Source of the DNA: an uncultured Bacteroidia bacterium
GTDB taxonomy: Bacteria; Bacteroidota; Bacteroidia; Bacteroidales; F082
Length of the DNA: 32,119 bases
Direction of reading: 5' to 3'
NCBI GenBank assembly: GCA_902770835.1
Contig: CACXUM010000043.1
Span: 1-32,119, forward strand
The position numbers were made by a program, and so were the translations under genes. Positions 5,044 through 28,094 of this stretch are shown here, piece by piece (position 1 is the stretch's first letter; each line of letters opens with the position of its first letter). The notes under the pieces are model-generated. The model ran no database searches. It saw nothing but the letters and a program-made list of their open reading frames with translations, and had not been told where the DNA came from.

Positions 5044-6795
5044 TTATTTTTTACTGTATTTCTTTTTCCTGATAAACGCCATGACGAAACCCAAGGCAAT
5101 GATAAAGGCAATAGGAACCAAAGTGTTGATAACCTGCCATTTGCCTCGTTCTTGGTTGACCTTGGTCACATCCAATAGGCGCACTTTCAGTTCGCGGGAG
5201 CGGATGTCAATCAAGCCTTCGCCGTCGACCAAATAACTGATGGCGTTCTCGATAAATTCCTTGTTGGCGTAGGTGTTTTGCGTGTATTGGTCATAGCCCA
5301 AAGGCAACGGTGTCTTGCGCTTGATGTCGATTTGGTTGCGGATAATGTCGCCGTCGGCCACCACGATCATGGCGGTAGGTTTGCTCTCCTCCATGAAGTC
5401 AGTGGCTTGATCATCAACAATTTCCTGCGGGATGCGGTTGGCATACAACGACGGGAAAGTGCCCTTCAGCAGGTAGGCCACATTCTTTCCTTTTGAACTG
5501 AACATACGCCTGTCGGGGGCTTGGCGCAGCATGGCCAAAGTGATGAAAACCGGCGCGCCCGACACCTTAGTATAATCAGAAGTCTTGAGCAACGGAATCT
5601 GTTCGATGCCGTTGGCCGAGGTGGTCGCATCCATCGAACTGACGAAATCAGCCTTGATGGCGTTCATGTGGCGCACCATCGGGTGGTCGGAAGCGGCTTG
5701 CAGCAAGGGGAAATAGAACCAACGGAAAAACTCCAACTGGGCTTGTCCGGCCATCTGACCCGTGCGGACGGGCAAGGCGGCGCAAGTCAAATCAAGAAGC
5801 AGGTCGCGATTGAGGCGCACACCGTATTTGAAAAGCATGTCGTCGAGGTTGAGGTCTTGCTCCAAACCGATGGTCGACTCTTGGCTTTGCAGGCTGTCCA
5901 TTGTGGCATAAACGGGTTCGACCAACCACAACACCTTGCCGCCGTGCATGATATATTGGTCGATGAGGAACTTGTCTTTTTCGTCGAAAGGCTCGGTCGG
6001 CTTGGCGATGATGATGGCGTCATACGAGGGGAAAGCCTTCACATCCTTTTCCTCGTTTTGCGTGCGGTGGATGAGCGCATCGATTTTGCCGTCAATTTGA
6101 ACGCGACCCACATTGTAGTTTTGCGCCAACGACTGCGCAATGTCGTACACTTCTTGTTCGCCCAATTCGCCATGACCTTCAATGAAAGCAATGTTGGGTT
6201 TCATCATCCGCGTCACCTTCTTGACTGCATCAATGAGGCGGAATTCAAGGTTCTGCATCGAGGCGTTAAGCGCGTCCTCCGACGACTTACCCAACTGGTT
6301 TTCAAGCAAATCGATGGCAATTTCAGTATCATTGCGGTAACTCACCAAGGCACCAGGCCAAATCACCAACTCTTGCGAAGAACCATCGTTGTTGCGGACG
6401 CTCACATTGGTAGGATTCAGACCAGCCCTATACAATTGCGTGCGTATTTCCTTGATTTCGGCAGGGTCGTTGCTCTCGGCAGGATTAATAAACTCATAGT
6501 CAATGTATTTCGTGTAGGCACGAAACTCGTCCAACATCTCTTTGGTTTCGCGGCGCAACTTCTTGAAACCAGCCGGAAACTCGCCTTCGAGGTACACCTT
6601 GAAATAAACATAGTCATTAAGTCCGTTGAGAATCTCTTTCGTCGTGGGCGACAAGGTGTAGCGTTTCTCGCTCGTCAAATCGAAGCGGGTGAATACAAAC
6701 GAGCCAATCACATTGACCAGCACGACAATCACCACCGCAACCACGAAGGAAACTATCTGGTTCTTTTTCAAATTCTTACGCTTGTTTTCCATCAT
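5044..6795 (-). CDS. gldG: GldG, gliding-associated ABC system substrate-binding-like subunit
   Basis: This 583-residue protein has an N-terminal membrane helix (IVSFVVAVVIVVLVNVIGS) followed by the GldG signature RFDLTSEKRYTLSPTTKEIL. A long extracytoplasmic region contains the ABC-transporter-auxiliary segment IAFIEGHGELGEQEVYDI and YDAIIIAKPTEPFDEKDKFL, and the protein ends with a membrane helix (LVPIAFIIALGFVMAFI) and a basic tail. In Flavobacterium johnsoniae GldF and GldG work with the ATPase GldA in gliding. In non-gliding Bacteroidales the pair is kept and its job is unclear. It starts eight bases after gldF. No gldA-like ATPase gene is visible in this window. Confidence 0.93.
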   Translation of the reverse strand: MMENKRKNLKKNQIVSFVVAVVIVVLVNVIGSFVFTRFDLTSEKRYTLSPTTKEILNGLNDYVYFKVYLEGEFPAGFKKLRRETKEMLDEFRAYTKYIDYEFINPAESNDPAEIKEIRTQLYRAGLNPTNVSVRNNDGSSQELVIWPGALVSYRNDTEIAIDLLENQLGKSSEDALNASMQNLEFRLIDAVKKVTRMMKPNIAFIEGHGELGEQEVYDIAQSLAQNYNVGRVQIDGKIDALIHRTQNEEKDVKAFPSYDAIIIAKPTEPFDEKDKFLIDQYIMHGGKVLWLVEPVYATMDSLQSQESTIGLEQDLNLDDMLFKYGVRLNRDLLLDLTCAALPVRTGQMAGQAQLEFFRWFYFPLLQAASDHPMVRHMNAIKADFVSSMDATTSANGIEQIPLLKTSDYTKVSGAPVFITLAMLRQAPDRRMFSSKGKNVAYLLKGTFPSLYANRIPQEIVDDQATDFMEESKPTAMIVVADGDIIRNQIDIKRKTPLPLGYDQYTQNTYANKEFIENAISYLVDGEGLIDIRSRELKVRLLDVTKVNQERGKWQVINTLVPIAFIIALGFVMAFIRKKKYSKK

Positions 6796-6803
6796 TCACC
6801 TCC

Positions 6804-7535
6804 TTACCATTTGCGGCTTGCCAAAACCAATTTCGTAGCACTCAAAAAAAGCGCTATCACACTCAAGAAATACAACACATCGCGCGTGTCGACCACGCCA
6901 CGACTCAACGAACTATAGTGCGCGTTCATGCCCAACTGCTGGATGAACAAATCGACTTTTCCGAACAAGGAAAGCGAATAGATGAACTCAAAGCCAATCA
7001 AAAGGAATCCGCAGAGGAAAACCGAGATGATGAAGGCCAATATCTGGTTGTTAGTCAACGAACTACAGAAAATCCCGATGCTTACGAAACTTGAACTCAG
7101 GAGAAACAGGCCGATATAGGAGCCCCAAATGCCGCCGATGTCGAGGTTGCCTTTGGGCAGGCCTAATTGGTAAACCGAGTAATAATAGACGAATGTCGGA
7201 ATCAAAGCCAGCAAAACGAGCGCGACACCCGCCAAAAACTTCGCCCAAATGATTTGCCAGTCCGACAAAGGCTTGGTAGTCAGCATCTCAATAGTGCCCG
7301 TGCGGTTTTCTTCGGCGAAACTGCGCATTGTCACGGCAGGCACAAGGAAAAGGAAGACCCACGGCGCAAGGATGAAAAGGCTGTCGAGGTTGGCGTAACC
7401 ATAGTTCAGCACATTGAAATCGCTTTGGAACACCCAAAGGAACAAGCCTGTGATGAGCAGAAACACCACAATCACCATGATACCTATCAGCGAACTAAGG
7501 AAGTTGCTGATTTCTTTCTTAAATAAGGCGTACAT
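6804..7535 (-). CDS. gldF: GldF, ABC-2 type permease
   Basis: This 243-residue polytopic protein has six hydrophobic segments and the ABC-2 permease pattern: MYALFKKEISNFLSS at the N-terminus, an extracytoplasmic loop around FQSDFNVLNYG, and the cytoplasmic motif FAEENRTGTIEMLTTKPLSD that contacts the ATPase. It is the first gene of the gldF-gldG-DUF4340 operon. Its start region lies back to back with the plus-strand gene at 7636, and a minus-strand TATTTTTG box sits at 7556-7563. The ATPase subunit must be encoded elsewhere. Confidence 0.94.
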   Translation of the reverse strand: MYALFKKEISNFLSSLIGIMVIVVFLLITGLFLWVFQSDFNVLNYGYANLDSLFILAPWVFLFLVPAVTMRSFAEENRTGTIEMLTTKPLSDWQIIWAKFLAGVALVLLALIPTFVYYYSVYQLGLPKGNLDIGGIWGSYIGLFLLSSSFVSIGIFCSSLTNNQILAFIISVFLCGFLLIGFEFIYSLSLFGKVDLFIQQLGMNAHYSSLSRGVVDTRDVLYFLSVIALFLSATKLVLASRKW

Positions 7536-21099: not shown

Positions 21100-22032
21100 T
21101 TAGTTATCGATGGGATTATTAATGGTCATATATTCTGCGGGATTGAGTGCGATGCCGTTGCGCCACAGTTCGAAATGAAGGTGTTCGGCCTGCGAAGTCT
21201 CGCCTGACTCGCCCAAAATGGCGATAGCCTCGCCCGCCTTCACGTATTCGCCTTCCTTTTTCAGCAGAGTTGCATTGTGCTTGTAGACCGAGAAATAACT
21301 GTCTTCATGCTGAATCCCAATGCAATAGCCATTGTTGATGCTCCATGTGGCGAACACCACCGTGCCATCAAGGGTGGCATTAATGATTTGGTCGCCTTCG
21401 GAGGCAATGTCGACACCGTAATGCCCCATGTCGGCATTGAACGTACTGATGACCGTCCCTGTGAGCGGAACGTAGAAATTCTTCACCAGCGTACTCGGCT
21501 TGGTGGGCGGCAGATAGTCGTCGCCGAAGAGGTTGTATTGGTTTTGGGCTTCGTATTCCGCTCTTAGCAGACTGTCTTGCACCGACTTCTTCAGCGTAAT
21601 CGTGTCGGTAACGCCCTTGGGCAGCGGTTCATAGATATTAATCGAGGCCAAGGCACTGTCGGCGGCAAAGTCGTAACCTTCAACGATTTTCTGGAGGTTT
21701 TCGAAATAGATGTCTTTCTTGTGCATTTCGCGGCTGAGCGAGTCGGCACGCAAGTTGAGCAGATAGACCTCGCGGTTGAGGTTGGTGTCGGTGTAGCCTG
21801 GGATGTACTCGCGCAAAGGCGTGAAAGCGATGATAAATGTGGTGATGATGATGAGCAGCAGCGCCAAACCGATGATGACCAAAATCAAGTTGAGGAGGTT
21901 CAACCTGAAATTGAGCATGGGCCGACCGCTCTCATCGTGCGACATGAGAAAATCGTACTTATGGTTTAGTTTCTTCAACGAAACGTTCCGAAGGCTGAAT
22001 TTCCTCGGTTTTTTATCTTTTGTTTCCGTCAT
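21100..22032 (-). CDS. M23 (LytM/lysostaphin-like) peptidase, membrane-anchored
   Basis: This 310-residue protein has a basic cytoplasmic N-terminus with the Bacteroidetes NLKKLNHKYDFLMSH-like segment, then a membrane helix (LLNLILVIIGLALLLIIITT). A coiled linker leads to a C-terminal M23 domain with zinc ligands H204 and D208 (GHYGVDIA) and HLHF at 284-287. M23 enzymes cut peptidoglycan cross-bridges. All metal-binding residues are present, so it is likely active. It is the first gene of the block leading into rseP and the secretion core. A TATTTTTG box is at 22063-22070. Confidence 0.95.
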   Translation of the reverse strand: MTETKDKKPRKFSLRNVSLKKLNHKYDFLMSHDESGRPMLNFRLNLLNLILVIIGLALLLIIITTFIIAFTPLREYIPGYTDTNLNREVYLLNLRADSLSREMHKKDIYFENLQKIVEGYDFAADSALASINIYEPLPKGVTDTITLKKSVQDSLLRAEYEAQNQYNLFGDDYLPPTKPSTLVKNFYVPLTGTVISTFNADMGHYGVDIASEGDQIINATLDGTVVFATWSINNGYCIGIQHEDSYFSVYKHNATLLKKEGEYVKAGEAIAILGESGETSQAEHLHFELWRNGIALNPAEYMTINNPIDN

Positions 22033-22315: not shown

Positions 22316-22457
22316 GAAAAGAAATCCCTATTCTTTCACCACTAATCGCGCCGCATGACTTTTTCCATCCGCATCCGTAATGCGCAACAGATAAACCCCT
22401 TCCACCAAACCGCTCAAATCAACCTCATTCGTCCCCCGCACAGTCTTCACCAACTGC
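22316..22457 (-). repeat. 142-base 3' direct repeat, copy 1 (sorting-domain end)
   Basis: This is 140 of 142 bases identical by eye to 24514-24655. It covers the last ~39 codons of a type IX sorting domain plus the bases after its natural stop, and extends to the CACCAACTGC decamer. The sorting-domain codons are in a different frame from the upstream gene. Confidence 0.9.
22328..22447 (-). pseudogene. Out-of-frame end of the type IX sorting domain, gene 1
   Basis: In the alternate frame the sequence reads QLVKTVRGTNEVDLSGLVEG followed by VYLLRITDADGKSHAARLVV and KE, then a stop. This is the conserved second half of a Por-type (type A) sorting domain. The upstream gene enters this region in the wrong frame and stops at 22425, so this part is not translated as annotated. 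Confidence 0.8.
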
Positions 22458-23099
22458 TGGCTGGATGCCTTCAATTATAACTTTCCCTTTGGCAGGATTG
22501 GGGTATAGCGAAACGTGCTGAAGGTATTGCTCTTGAACCGATGTTTCATCAATATAGCAAGTGTTGTATTCTGGGTTCTCAAAGACCTGCTCACCATCTT
22601 TGTATTCGCACAGCAAATTATTCTCACAATCATAGTAATCCAAATATCCTATAGGGAAATTGTTCGGGAAAATGCTCTCACGGAAAGTCAAAGCATCATG
22701 CCACGGAAGATAAGGAAGAGCAAAACGTATCACTTTCCTTCCGTTTTCGAAAGACACGCTTTCTACGACACACGGATGCGCCATCCCCCAACTGTCAATA
22801 TGATAGAAAGTGTCGCCTACTGTCAATGTCATGTCGCAAAGCAACACTTCTTCCTCGTCAATCATGGGGAAATAGCGATATAGTCTTCCCGTCGAGGTTT
22901 CTTCGCGGAAATATAACTCTGCATTTTCAAAAAAGAATCCTCTGGGGGTAGCATGAAGATAATCGTGTCCGTTGACGTGGAGCACATTCAACCGAGTGGA
23001 ATCTGTTCCAAAATAGGATTCATACTCTTGCGCTTGCATCGTCACCCCTCCCGCCATCAGCAGGAGCGCAAGCAGGGTGAAAAGTCTTGTTGCTTTCAT
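22425..23099 (-). CDS. Secreted protein with frame-shifted type IX sorting domain (gene 1)
   Basis: This 224-residue protein begins with the signal peptide MKATRLFTLLALLLMAGG, identical to that of the gene at 24623. Its middle (HVNGHDYLHATPRGFFFE, then HPCVVESVSFENGRKVIRF) resembles small Bacteroidetes secreted proteins of unknown role. The sorting domain begins normally (VSLYPNPAKGKVIIEG) and then runs into PAVGEDCAGDE and stops. Compared with the other copy, the ~10 residues EAKEVKVYNALG appear to be missing. The shift loses the last 39 residues needed for recognition and attachment by the secretion system, so export across the outer membrane is doubtful unless the frame is restored. Confidence 0.8.
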   Translation of the reverse strand: MKATRLFTLLALLLMAGGVTMQAQEYESYFGTDSTRLNVLHVNGHDYLHATPRGFFFENAELYFREETSTGRLYRYFPMIDEEEVLLCDMTLTVGDTFYHIDSWGMAHPCVVESVSFENGRKVIRFALPYLPWHDALTFRESIFPNNFPIGYLDYYDCENNLLCEYKDGEQVFENPEYNTCYIDETSVQEQYLQHVSLYPNPAKGKVIIEGIQPAVGEDCAGDE

Positions 23100-23280
23100 T
23101 TCAAAGTGTTTTTCTGTGTTATGCAGGCAAAATTATTCAAAAAAACCTCCAAAAAAACATCTGTCAAGTCCTAAAATGGTTTTGTCCCTATCTTTTTCGT
23201 TTTTGAAATTTTCAATGTATTGAAATTCAAATATTTATAGAAAAATGGTTTTTGGGCTTGTCCATATTATTTTTTCGGTT
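23046..23280 (-). repeat. 5' direct repeat, copy 1 (signal peptide and upstream region)
   Basis: The first 145 bases (23046-23190) match 26045-26189 with about three differences. The match continues at lower identity to about 23280. It covers the signal peptide codons, the leader and a TAATTTTG box at 23128-23135. Confidence 0.9.
23128..23135 (-). promoter_or_regulatory. -7 box of secreted gene 1
   Basis: The minus strand reads TAATTTTG, 28 bases upstream of the ATG. The identical box is upstream of gene 2 at 26127-26134. No clear TTG is seen at 19-22 bases. Confidence 0.45.
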
Positions 23281-23362
23281 TCAAGGATAATCAAATGCGA
23301 TAATTCCTGCAATTTTGGGCAAAACAAGGTTTGCTTTTGGGATATTGCCTCATTGAGTTGCT

Positions 23363-23417
23363 GAAGGTCAATAACGCAAAAGACCCACCCCTTTCGAGGC
23401 AAGTCTTTTGCTCGTTT
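23363..23417 (-). terminator. Terminator-like hairpin downstream of fic
   Basis: GCAAAAGAC and GTCTTTTGC form the stem around a C-rich loop. It begins within 20 bases of the fic stop at 23421. A nearly identical block is at 26290-26342 after groEL, so it belongs to the duplicated upstream segment of the secreted genes. Confidence 0.6.
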
Positions 23418-23420
23418 GCA

Positions 23421-24344
23421 TTATCCGTTTATCATTTCAAGCATTTCCCTCATTCTGGCCACTAATGCCTCACCAACAATTTTTGTCATAGCTTCAGCCG
23501 ATCCGGTAGTGGCATATTCATCGAATGCATCGTAATAACGCTTCCTGTCAGAAAACTTGATGTTGACCGCCGGCAACCCTGCTTTGATGAGTTGCAGATT
23601 CATCAAAAGCCGGCCTGTGCGGCCATTCCCGTCGATGAACGGGTGGATGCTCTCAAAACGAAGATGGAAAAGCGCGACACATTCCACAATGTGCATTGTT
23701 TTGCGCCAAGTGATGTAATCGTTCAGCAGTTCCTCAATCTTCGGCTCAATCAGATACGGCTGCACGGGATTCGTCAAGCCGCCTGCTATGCGCACATTGA
23801 CCCTGCGGAAGGTTCCTCTGTCTTCCGGTCGGTCGGCCAACACCAAATTGTGAATGCCCTTGATGTCAAATTCGGAAAGCTCCTTGTCTTGTTTTGCCAG
23901 TTCCTCCATATATTGAAATGCTTCTTTGTAACCCACGGCTTCCAAATGGTCTTTAAGGGGTTTCTGGTCGATGGTAACGCCTTGAAGCACAAGGGCGGTT
24001 TCCTGCAAAGTCAAAGTGTTTCCTTCGATGGCATTGCTATTGTAAGTATGCTCGACAAGGAAAACCTCTTTTATAGCCTCCACTTCAGCAGGTGTCAAAG
24101 GACGGCAGGCATCCAACGATTTTTTGAGCGCGTCAACTTGTTCAAGAATTGGCCAGTAAGTCTTTTTGATGGTCTTTTTTGCATAAGTTCTTGCATCTAT
24201 GGGCTGTACTGCATCCTCTGGAATCAAATACAGATTACCCTTTCGCTCCACACCTGCAATGCGGCCTTGTTCGCACAACGCTCTCACTCTCCTTGAGGAA
24301 ATGCCCCATTTTGCGGCGGCTTCCGAAACCTTAATATACTTCAT
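23421..24344 (-). CDS. Fic domain protein with N-terminal HTH
   Basis: This 307-residue protein has two parts. Residues 1-45 form a helix-turn-helix of MerR/excisionase type (SEAAAKWGISSRRVRALCEQ). The rest is a Fic domain with the catalytic motif HPFIDGNGRTGR at 234-245 and an intact inhibitory motif SNAIEGN at 103-109. That motif places it in the self-inhibited class in which an N-terminal helix blocks ATP. Fic enzymes transfer AMP from ATP to proteins. No separate antitoxin is expected. Direct repeats around its promoter suggest self-regulation (see findings). It sits between two secreted-protein genes sharing direct repeats, so it could be lost by recombination. Confidence 0.93.
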   Translation of the reverse strand: MKYIKVSEAAAKWGISSRRVRALCEQGRIAGVERKGNLYLIPEDAVQPIDARTYAKKTIKKTYWPILEQVDALKKSLDACRPLTPAEVEAIKEVFLVEHTYNSNAIEGNTLTLQETALVLQGVTIDQKPLKDHLEAVGYKEAFQYMEELAKQDKELSEFDIKGIHNLVLADRPEDRGTFRRVNVRIAGGLTNPVQPYLIEPKIEELLNDYITWRKTMHIVECVALFHLRFESIHPFIDGNGRTGRLLMNLQLIKAGLPAVNIKFSDRKRYYDAFDEYATTGSAEAMTKIVGEALVARMREMLEMING

Positions 24345-24401
24345 ATCATTCCGATTTTTTGATTTTCACGCCGCAAATATACCGATATTATTCCGATTTT
24401 T
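24343..24401 (-). promoter_or_regulatory. Candidate operator repeats at the fic promoter
   Basis: Two copies of ATAT[C/T]ATTCCGATTTTT (plus-strand reading) lie at 24343-24359 and 24385-24401, 16 of 17 identical and 42 bases apart, four turns of DNA. One overlaps the start codon and the other lies between the TTG and TATATTTG elements, where a bound repressor would block transcription. Confidence 0.55.
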
Positions 24402-24405
24402 GCAA
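24374..24405 (-). promoter_or_regulatory. fic promoter
   Basis: The minus strand has TTG at 24405-24403 and TATATTTG at 24381-24374, 21 bases apart. This is one of the best consensus matches in the window. The leader to the ATG is about 23 bases. Confidence 0.7.
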
Positions 24406-24472
24406 TTTTGGGAATAAAACTGTGGTTTATTAATGGTTTTGCAAGGTTGGGTCATTACGCGACAACCACGAA

Positions 24473-24504
24473 AAAAGGCCAACCGCTTTCGCAGTCAGCC
24501 TTTT
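24473..24504 (-). terminator. Terminator downstream of secreted gene 2
   Basis: AAAAGGC and GCCTTTT close a long stem that continues through TGACTGC/GCGGTTG with wobble pairs to a GAAA tetraloop (minus-strand reading). It lies about 20 bases after the natural end of the sorting domain at 24526. Confidence 0.8.
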
Positions 24505-24513
24505 GTTCGTTTT

Positions 24514-24655
24514 GAAAAGAAATCCCTATTCTTTCACCACTAATCGCGCCGTATGGCTTTTTCCATCCGCATCCGTAATGCGCAACAGATAAACCCCTTC
24601 CACCAAACCGCTCAAATCAACCTCATTCGTCCCCCGCACAGTCTTCACCAACTGC
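24514..24655 (-). repeat. 142-base 3' direct repeat, copy 2 (sorting-domain end)
   Basis: This is the counterpart of 22316-22457, with only two differences (in the GCCG[C/T]ATG[A/G]CTTT segment). It ends at the first copy of the duplicated decamer CACCAACTGC. Confidence 0.9.
24526..24645 (-). pseudogene. Out-of-frame end of the type IX sorting domain, gene 2
   Basis: The alternate frame reads KTVRGTNEVDLSGLVEG, then VYLLRITDADGKSHTARLVV and KE, then a stop. Removing one copy of the duplicated decamer at 24646-24665 joins it in frame to YNALGQLV of the upstream coding region and restores a full sorting domain. Confidence 0.85.
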
Positions 24656-26098
24656 CACCAACTGCCCAAGGGCATTGTAAACCTTCACTTCTTTGGCTTC
24701 AACTCCTTCTATCGTTACCTTCTCATTGGCAGGATTAGGATAACAACCCACAGAATGCTTCACGTTTCCCATTTCAGGAACATCCAAATAACCTTCCGAA
24801 TTAATCTTCACGGCAAACATCATCATCCCTTCCTCACCATTAAGTCCTGTTCCAATTTCTCCAGTCACAAGGCAACCGCCGTCTTGCGTGGCCATCACAT
24901 AGTGAGGTCTAATTCTGTTGTTGAAATCGTAAACCCGCTGCCAAATTACATCCAGCCCTGTGGTCAGTTTTGTGACGCAGAAAGTGGAGTTCCCAACCTC
25001 GCCTGTTTCTAGGTCATAGTCCAATATGCAATAGCAATAGAACAAGTAATCTCCCAATCTGTCCACACCTTTTATTTCCGGCACTATCTCCGTATAATCA
25101 TCGTAGCAGTCTGAGAGAAGAAGTCCGTCAAAGTCATCAACATAGATGTGTAGTAATGTGTCGGAAGGGCTAAGTTTCATCAATACAGATGCGTCAGGAA
25201 CATGTTCAGGATAGGTCCACCCCAATCCTTCAACAGCAATGAAAAGACTACTATCAGGCATCGACAACACGGTGGATTGGTCGTAGCGGCTCATAAAAAG
25301 TATCTCATCAGCATTCTCAAAATGAATGTTTAATGGAATGTTTCGTTGCCCAACAGGTTCAAAATTACGGTTGAGTCGTTGAATAATCGCTTCCCAAGAA
25401 TAACACACACCGTAATCGCCAGAGCCATCTTGGTATTCAAAGATTCCTCCTGTATTAAACAAAGATGTCTGTGTTGTTGTGTCTATGGCCATCACATCAC
25501 CCTCAGAGGAGAGCCGCAAGTACAAATAAGGATGGGTCAGCGGATTGCTGGAATCGTAAAATTCGGTCATGTAAACGATGTCGTTTTGGCTATCCATGAA
25601 CGATTTTTGCTTGAAGAAAAACTTGCAGCAATTATGAGGCAAATCCACTTCCTTCTGCCACACGATATTCAAGTCGGCATCGAACCTAACCAAGAAAGGT
25701 TTGTCATAATGCAAGTCGTTGTCGTGGATTTTTCCTACAACAAGAAAGAGGTCTTCGTTCTCTGGGTCGTGATGGATGCCCGTGACGGTGGAACGGTGGC
25801 CTTCCTCTCCAATGACCATCTCGCCAAGCAACTCCATTTTGGGCGACAATTTGAGTATTCTTGCTGGGGTGTTGTGTTCTTGTTCGTAAGTGAACCAATC
25901 AAACGAAAAATCGAATGCCGAGGCAAGGAAGAAGTGGTTTTCGCTATCATTGTTGCCCACCTCAAGGCAAGGTCCTCCCTCAGAGAATCTGAAATTGGGG
26001 TCTTCATAGGTGAAGTAGGATTCGTTCTGCGCCTTCAAATTAATCCCTCCCGCCATCAGCAGGAGCGCAAGCAGGGTGAAAAGTCTTGTTGCTTTCAT
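24623..26098 (-). CDS. Secreted protein with frame-shifted type IX sorting domain (gene 2)
   Basis: This 491-residue protein begins with the same signal peptide as gene 1 (MKATRLFTLLALLLMAGG). The body looks like a repetitive beta structure, with recurring strand-Asp motifs such as LVRFDADLNIVWQKE and VTKLTTGLDVIWQR. These are typical of large Bacteroidetes secreted proteins with propeller-like repeats. The sorting domain starts normally (YPNPANEKVTIEGVEAKEV, then KVYNALGQLV) and then shifts into AVGEDCAGDE and stops. The cause is an exact 10-base tandem duplication (24646-24665). The correct frame would add 39 residues. The gene is otherwise intact, implying a recent or reversible change. 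Confidence 0.82.
   Translation of the reverse strand: MKATRLFTLLALLLMAGGINLKAQNESYFTYEDPNFRFSEGGPCLEVGNNDSENHFFLASAFDFSFDWFTYEQEHNTPARILKLSPKMELLGEMVIGEEGHRSTVTGIHHDPENEDLFLVVGKIHDNDLHYDKPFLVRFDADLNIVWQKEVDLPHNCCKFFFKQKSFMDSQNDIVYMTEFYDSSNPLTHPYLYLRLSSEGDVMAIDTTTQTSLFNTGGIFEYQDGSGDYGVCYSWEAIIQRLNRNFEPVGQRNIPLNIHFENADEILFMSRYDQSTVLSMPDSSLFIAVEGLGWTYPEHVPDASVLMKLSPSDTLLHIYVDDFDGLLLSDCYDDYTEIVPEIKGVDRLGDYLFYCYCILDYDLETGEVGNSTFCVTKLTTGLDVIWQRVYDFNNRIRPHYVMATQDGGCLVTGEIGTGLNGEEGMMMFAVKINSEGYLDVPEMGNVKHSVGCYPNPANEKVTIEGVEAKEVKVYNALGQLVAVGEDCAGDE
24646..24665 (-). repeat. 10-base tandem duplication breaking the sorting domain
   Basis: CACCAACTGC occurs twice in immediate tandem (24646-24655 and 24656-24665). 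One copy too many shifts the frame by one. Gene 1 has the decamer once at 22448-22457. Confidence 0.9.
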
Positions 26099-26280
26099 TT
26101 CAAAGTGTTTTTCTGTGTTGTGCCCGCAAAATTATTCAAAAAAACCTCCAAAAAAACATCTGTCAAGTCCTAAAATGGTTTTGTCCCTATTATTTTCTGT
26201 TTTGAAATTTTCAATATATTGAAATTCAAATGTTTATGAAAAATCGGTTTTGGGGCTTGTCCATATTTTTTTTTGGTTTC
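26045..26280 (-). repeat. 5' direct repeat, copy 2 (signal peptide and upstream region)
   Basis: This is the counterpart of 23046-23280, 2999 bases away. It is nearly identical for 145 bases and then about 85% similar. The TAATTTTG box is at 26127-26134. Confidence 0.9.
26127..26134 (-). promoter_or_regulatory. -7 box of secreted gene 2
   Basis: The minus strand reads TAATTTTG, identical in sequence and placement to that of gene 1. Confidence 0.45.
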
Positions 26281-26289
26281 AAGAGAAAA

Positions 26290-26342
26290 GAAGGTCAATA
26301 ACGCAAAAGACCCACCCCTTTCGAGGCAGGTCTTTTGCTCGT
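26290..26342 (-). terminator. Terminator-like hairpin downstream of groEL
   Basis: The stem GCAAAAGAC/GTCTTTTGC matches the block at 23363-23417. It lies about 105 bases after the groEL stop and directly before the secreted gene 2 promoter region. Confidence 0.6.
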
Positions 26343-26357
26343 TTCCAAAACTTTTGG

Positions 26358-26447: not shown

Positions 26448-28094
<1,647 letters not shown>

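Follow-up and report, generated by a model that had tools for sequence, protein, structure and literature searches.

We propose that two neighbouring secreted-protein genes, g1 and g2, on a contig of an uncultured Bacteroidia bacterium (Bacteroidales; F082) are probably a recent and damaged recombination product in an accessory locus that exchanges the bodies of type IX secreted proteins between constant ends. The window, meaning the whole stretch of DNA that was analysed, comprises 32,119 nucleotides (GenBank assembly GCA_902770835.1, contig CACXUM010000043.1, positions 1 to 32,119), and the order of genes on its minus strand is groEL, g2, a Fic gene, g1 and an M23 peptidase gene (Table 1). 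As judged from sequence comparison with relatives, intact copies of both genes exist in sister loci and in a changed order, tails are typed by the position of a gene in its array, tails have been exchanged, and the gap between groEL and M23 is empty in some genomes and occupied in others; from these comparisons we infer recombination of the RecA type, the order of events and the cellular fate of the proteins.

The first-pass annotation of this DNA had described g1 and g2 as twins with near-identical ends and unrelated bodies, and this description holds. The 3' ends agree at 140 of 142 bases, and the best 145-base stretch of the 5' ends agrees at 142 positions (start 23046 or 23047, compared with the sequence at +2999). 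The 5' match sits within a longer block of 252 bases with 90% identity that reaches into the upstream region, and a 58-base terminator-like block still farther upstream, which that annotation did not contain, is common to both genes at 97%. Beyond these three shared blocks (5', 3' and terminator-like), blastn of g1 against g2 gave no match. A putative N-terminal signal peptide, MKATRLFTLLALLLMAGG, was read by eye in both genes. As previously described, both type IX sorting domains are broken before their last 39 codons and both reading frames run out through AVGEDCAGDE, here to a stop. The frames exit the domain where the 3' block has its left edge, and in both genes the 39 codons are open in another frame. 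The further claim of two independent breaks at one site calls for caution: both breaks fall at that shared block edge and so may themselves be exchange joints. Relative to the sister locus L129 (G, L and C numbers are our labels for genomes, loci and contigs), g2 carries GCAGTTGGTG twice in tandem whereas g1 lacks 29 bases, and g1 has also lost 60 bases in frame near residue 40. Both lesions shift the frame by +1 modulo 3, so that the identical out-of-frame peptide is shared sequence read in one frame, and the agreement of the two wrong frames had a chance of one in two.

For the type A sorting domain (PF18962 / TIGR04183; PMC10202324, PMC4804311), the review PMC10202324 lists the conserved motifs A, B, D and E. 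The frames of the window genes leave the domain about half-way, and the later motifs should be lost. Three sister proteins (g1 and g2 of L129 and g2 of a second locus, L128) exceed the Pfam cut-off for this domain with 43.2-46.7 bits, whereas the window proteins do not: g2 falls below the type A cut-offs (PF18962, 25.3 bits against 27; 20.7 against 23), and for g1 neither Pfam nor NCBIfam gave a match at E 0.1. At the DNA level the split halves of the g2 sorting domain match in two frames, just above 23 bits, and the sorting-domain half of g1 scores just under 23 bits. By analogy across genera, losing the 39 codons should abolish export. All matches of g2 are weak: its partial sorting domain, DUF6383 (0.07) and a model for a beta-propeller lipoprotein in NCBIfam (18.9 bits where the cut-off is 400; E 5e-4). 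With the limits applied to Pfam, NCBIfam and PADLOC, neither g1 nor g2 matched a toxin family. The same genome contains at least 150 matches to TIGR04183 (150 of 164 candidates scored), among which both window tails are split or partial.

The comparison with relatives argues for movement of bodies between tails. In L129, a locus in the metagenome-assembled genome (MAG) RUG11504, g1 (285 aa; 6177-7034) and g2 (520 aa) are both intact; the two genes overlap at ATGA, and the gene order is groEL-g1-g2-M23. L128, in MAG SRR12081298_bin.45, starts with the end of groEL, followed by an intact g2 and then M23, with no g1 between. The body of g1 is 98.7-100% identical to that of L129 in each 300-base bin, apart from the two losses. 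From position 22457 downward, the tail of window g1 and the M23 side align with the tail of L129 g2 and its M23 side over 5,641 bases without a gap (97.7%; first bin 89.9%). Both window 3' blocks match L129 g1 at every one of their first 90 bases and L129 g2 at 57 of their last 60, hence g1 has a last-gene tail in the window and an internal tail in L129. Upstream, window g1 resembles L129 g1 and window g2 resembles L128 g2. From these sequences the breaks look recent, and decay is the likely fate of the window copies. There are intact counterparts in a relative, and g1 has its second, in-frame loss; the bodies are open, with no excess of amino-acid change shown (over 184 codons g1 has five changes against L129, 2 of them synonymous and 3 not). 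That the window contig is a join of two species was considered and dropped; the rest of the window is also close to RUG11504 (91-98% over the main stretches and 100% over one short stretch), as is another contig of the same genome (97-98% over the main stretches).

Arrays that share the leader-type start were found in G021, G111, G031, G105, G003, G092, G002, G016, the window, L129 and L128, with those of G002 and G016 split over contigs. Read at the DNA level, a TNKI-type tail, whose stop overlaps the ATG of the next gene, ends 11 of the 13 genes that have another array gene after them (the exceptions are G111-1 and G031-2; the TNKI tails of G031-1 and G092-1 are out of frame), and a VKE-type tail ends all 10 of the last or sole genes read. 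Both window genes have the VKE-type tail, out of frame. The g2 body opens the array in G016, closes it in L129 and stands alone in L128, in each case with the tail type that matches its position, and a body of about 1,050 residues closes the arrays of G021, G031 and G105 behind different neighbours. The earlier suggestion of a cassette family is thus supported by relatives, in which one body can be found with several tails and at several positions, and nearly identical tails follow bodies that are unrelated.

The same tendency appears in pairwise comparisons. Our own sorting-domain model matches 111 frames (90 codons or longer) from 35 loci, 100 of them over the full length; 60 belong to the GQxV class, and they give 52 same-body pairs after the removal of two frame-broken genes. 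Bodies are at least 90% identical in 22 of these pairs, and 11 of the 22 have less than 75% identity in the second half of the sorting domain. Conversely, the second halves are at least 90% identical in 47 and at least 95% identical in 8 of 1478 different-body pairs, a list that includes the two frame-broken genes and in which window g2 accounts for 2 of the 8. For the 42 genes with a same-body partner, the nearest first half of the sorting domain comes from the same body in 25 cases and the nearest second half in 8. A single crossover point at the break site is unsupported, as identity falls across the sorting domain and not at one base.

The groEL-M23 gap was compared across 99 genomes of the genus, one per species, in which groEL was found in 86 and M23 in 76 at the cut-offs used. 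Both lie on one contig in 44 genomes, and the gap between them is 115-401 bases, i.e. empty, in 24, 1.7-7.5 kb in 16 and more than 15 kb in 4. The gaps read, in addition to the window and L129, were 14 from the group of 16 occupied ones, 3 from the group of 24 empty ones and none of the 4 wide ones. At least one type IX sorting-domain gene is present in 13 of the 16 occupied gaps (the window, L129 and eleven others, with G115 counted on a short frame only), and the sorting-domain search had no match in the occupied gaps of G018, G066 and G095. Fic and its terminator repeat, a module of 1,137 bases, recur at the same locus in G018 at 95% identity, where two 43-base copies of that repeat flank Fic; the empty locus of G101 has a single copy.

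Table 1. Coordinates of the features of the groEL-M23 locus in the window.
Feature	Position	Strand	Remarks
g1	22425..23099	-	224 aa; putative signal peptide and body, sorting domain broken
g2	24623..26098	-	491 aa; putative signal peptide and body, sorting domain broken near residue 481
g1 3' constant block	22316..22457	-	Second half of sorting domain, stop and about 12 bases beyond
g2 3' constant block	24514..24655	-	140/142 identical to the g1 block
g2 10-base tandem duplication, GCAGTTGGTG x2	24646..24665	-	At the frame break
g1 joint, 29 bases of sister missing	22455..22458	-	2 bases of homology
g1 joint of 60-base in-frame loss relative to sister	22977..22982	-	Near residue 40
g1 5' constant block	23029..23280	-	Upstream region and putative signal peptide; 90% to 26028-26279
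g2 5' constant block	26028..26279	-	Upstream region similar to that of L128 g2
Terminator-like repeat T after groEL	26290..26347	not assigned	
Terminator-like repeat T' after g2	24458..24515	not assigned	60% to T
Terminator-like repeat T after Fic	23363..23420	not assigned	97% to 26290-26347
Fic/DOC protein	23421..24344	-	Helix-turn-helix start; accessory module between g2 and g1
groEL	26448..28082	-	One edge of accessory locus
M23 peptidase	21100..22032	-	Other edge of accessory locus

We suggest that the groEL-M23 gap would be an accessory locus where part of the genus keeps type IX secreted-protein genes in operon-like arrays. In each array gene a body would lie between two constant ends, the leader and signal peptide at the 5' side and the sorting domain, mainly its second half, at the 3' side. 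The tail would be set by array position and not by the body, and homologous recombination between the constant ends, and probably also between repeated terminators, would add, drop and reorder bodies. In the lineage of the window, recombination would have left g2 and g1 as single-gene units separated by Fic; each unit would combine the start of a first gene with the tail of a last gene, hence the near-identical ends and different middles. Haplotypes recombining at terminators, signal peptides and sorting domains provide a plausible history, whose order of events we infer. Exchange joints, or small insertions or deletions beside the joints, would have put both tails out of frame, and the g1 and g2 proteins, lacking an export signal, would be periplasmic or degraded, which would represent a recent loss of function and not a programmed switch.

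Several observations weigh against this interpretation. In 8 of the 22 closely matching same-body pairs the second halves of the sorting domain share at least 85% identity and have thus been kept, and the 8 of 42 second-half neighbours from the same body equal the maximum of 1,000 shuffles (mean 1.9), so that the tail keeps some ancestry with the body, less than the first half does. In 27 same-body pairs the drop in identity begins on average about 60 bases before the break site. The g2 body has a ratio of nonsynonymous to synonymous substitution (dN/dS) of 0.22 against L129, near the 0.17 of the intact sister pair, and g1 has the five changes given above. Leader-type arrays are present in 11 genomes only, among the loci read, and five of the 16 occupied gaps (G022, G075, G087, G012 and G115) hold type IX genes without the terminator pattern. 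Every genome compared in detail is a draft assembly, both sister loci are from MAGs, and the repeated ends may have been misassembled.

The last point leads to the first alternative, in which the repeated ends were misjoined in a draft genome and the real genes are intact. A draft of 76 contigs that is 85.8% complete, repeated ends of 142 and 252 bases and the intact copies in the sister loci would all suit such an assembly error, which we regard as unlikely, because the g1 joint has only 2 bases of homology, which should give an overlap-based misjoin little to work with, and comparable broken joints in the same locus of other assemblies would point the same way. It is quite unlikely, in our judgement, that the genus maintains cassette exchange as a system, with bodies passing between arrays and genomes by way of position-typed signal-peptide and sorting-domain ends, in which out-of-frame copies such as the window pair would form an undisplayed archive that later exchanges could restore to the surface. 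Plain duplication, with gene conversion homogenising the ends within one genome and bodies that do not move, would explain why the ends of the window pair are more alike than the bodies; it appears distinctly improbable given that the g2 body is found in first, last and sole position with a tail that follows the position, and homogenisation within arrays, when tried as a candidate, proved weak, as the nearest second half lies in the same array for only 5 of the 42 genes.

The first-pass annotation had also raised a switch of surface display, i.e. phase variation at the sorting domain, for which it can be said that a 10-base tandem duplication is reversible in principle and that frame breaks recur in the locus (4 of the 25 leader-type array genes with a visible sorting domain, namely the window pair and the first genes of G031 and G092), but we have set a programmed switch aside as very improbable indeed, as the duplicated 21-base pattern occurs in 1 of the 99 genomes (at no more than 1 mismatch; a duplication in a diverged copy would escape), the sister copies are intact, the two window lesions are of different kinds, the 29-base loss in g1 is unable to revert by itself and the lesions of G031 and G092 are different again.

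Some further observations concern the same locus and its domains. The frame-broken first genes of G031 (L156) and G092 (L163) are from draft genomes, as are three further broken cases outside the leader-type arrays, in G023 and G031. The third gene of G031 (L156) has a sorting domain shortened by an in-frame loss, and at L116 2646-2993 (G031) the body is missing and a signal-peptide start runs almost straight into the end of a sorting domain. Two more sorting domains in the genome of the window are broken at another kind of tract, in C8 (L049 2770-3325; C8:~89169) and in C52 (L050 2643-3198; C52:~23042), both out of frame after CTCAACTCTAAACTCT-like repeats, a tract that could slip. Terminator-like hairpins of the form CGAGCAAAAG...CTTTT separate the modules of the gap, at the three repeats listed for the window and in L151 and L165, and may act as recombination arms. 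In L129, at about 5400-6050, there are short open frames between groEL and g1 that by eye include a possible antitoxin and a cut PIN-like toxin, and in L153 (G066; 223-1545, reverse complement) an unrelated large gene lies in the gap, by eye AAA-type ATPase-like.

The type IX secretion system lets many Bacteroidota dress their surface, and a gap that holds 0-4 type IX genes in the genomes read, with bodies that are swapped between constant ends, would, if true, be a simple route to rapid surface change, in this case in uncultured bacteria. A word of caution also follows for draft genomes, in which out-of-frame sorting domains may be exchange joints rather than switches.

Within the openly licensed PMC literature covered, we recognised no paper that describes such cassette arrays. 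The terms 'duplicat', 'recombin' and 'horizontal' are absent from the main text of the review PMC10202324, and 'tandem' and 'duplicat' from the text covered of PMC5831590, on type IX cellulases in a rumen Bacteroidetes family. The closest parallel is Porphyromonas gingivalis, likewise a member of the Bacteroidales with type IX secretion and surface-protein variation by recombination, in which, according to the parts of PMC5266723 considered, the variants of surface proteins form a mosaic unrelated to the phylogeny of single-nucleotide polymorphisms that arises by recombination and gene conversion. What varies there, again in those parts of PMC5266723, is the alleles and adhesin domains of particular surface proteins, through domain rearrangement and allelic exchange, whereas in the locus described here it is the whole body that varies, flanked by a constant signal-peptide end and a constant sorting-domain end, within arrays that occupy a single gap in the chromosome. 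The polymorphic toxins, as presented in the text of PMC3482391 that was covered, similarly gain diversity by recombining cassettes with a constant part, but in them the C-terminal toxin domain is the variable portion, whereas here the body varies and both ends are constant.

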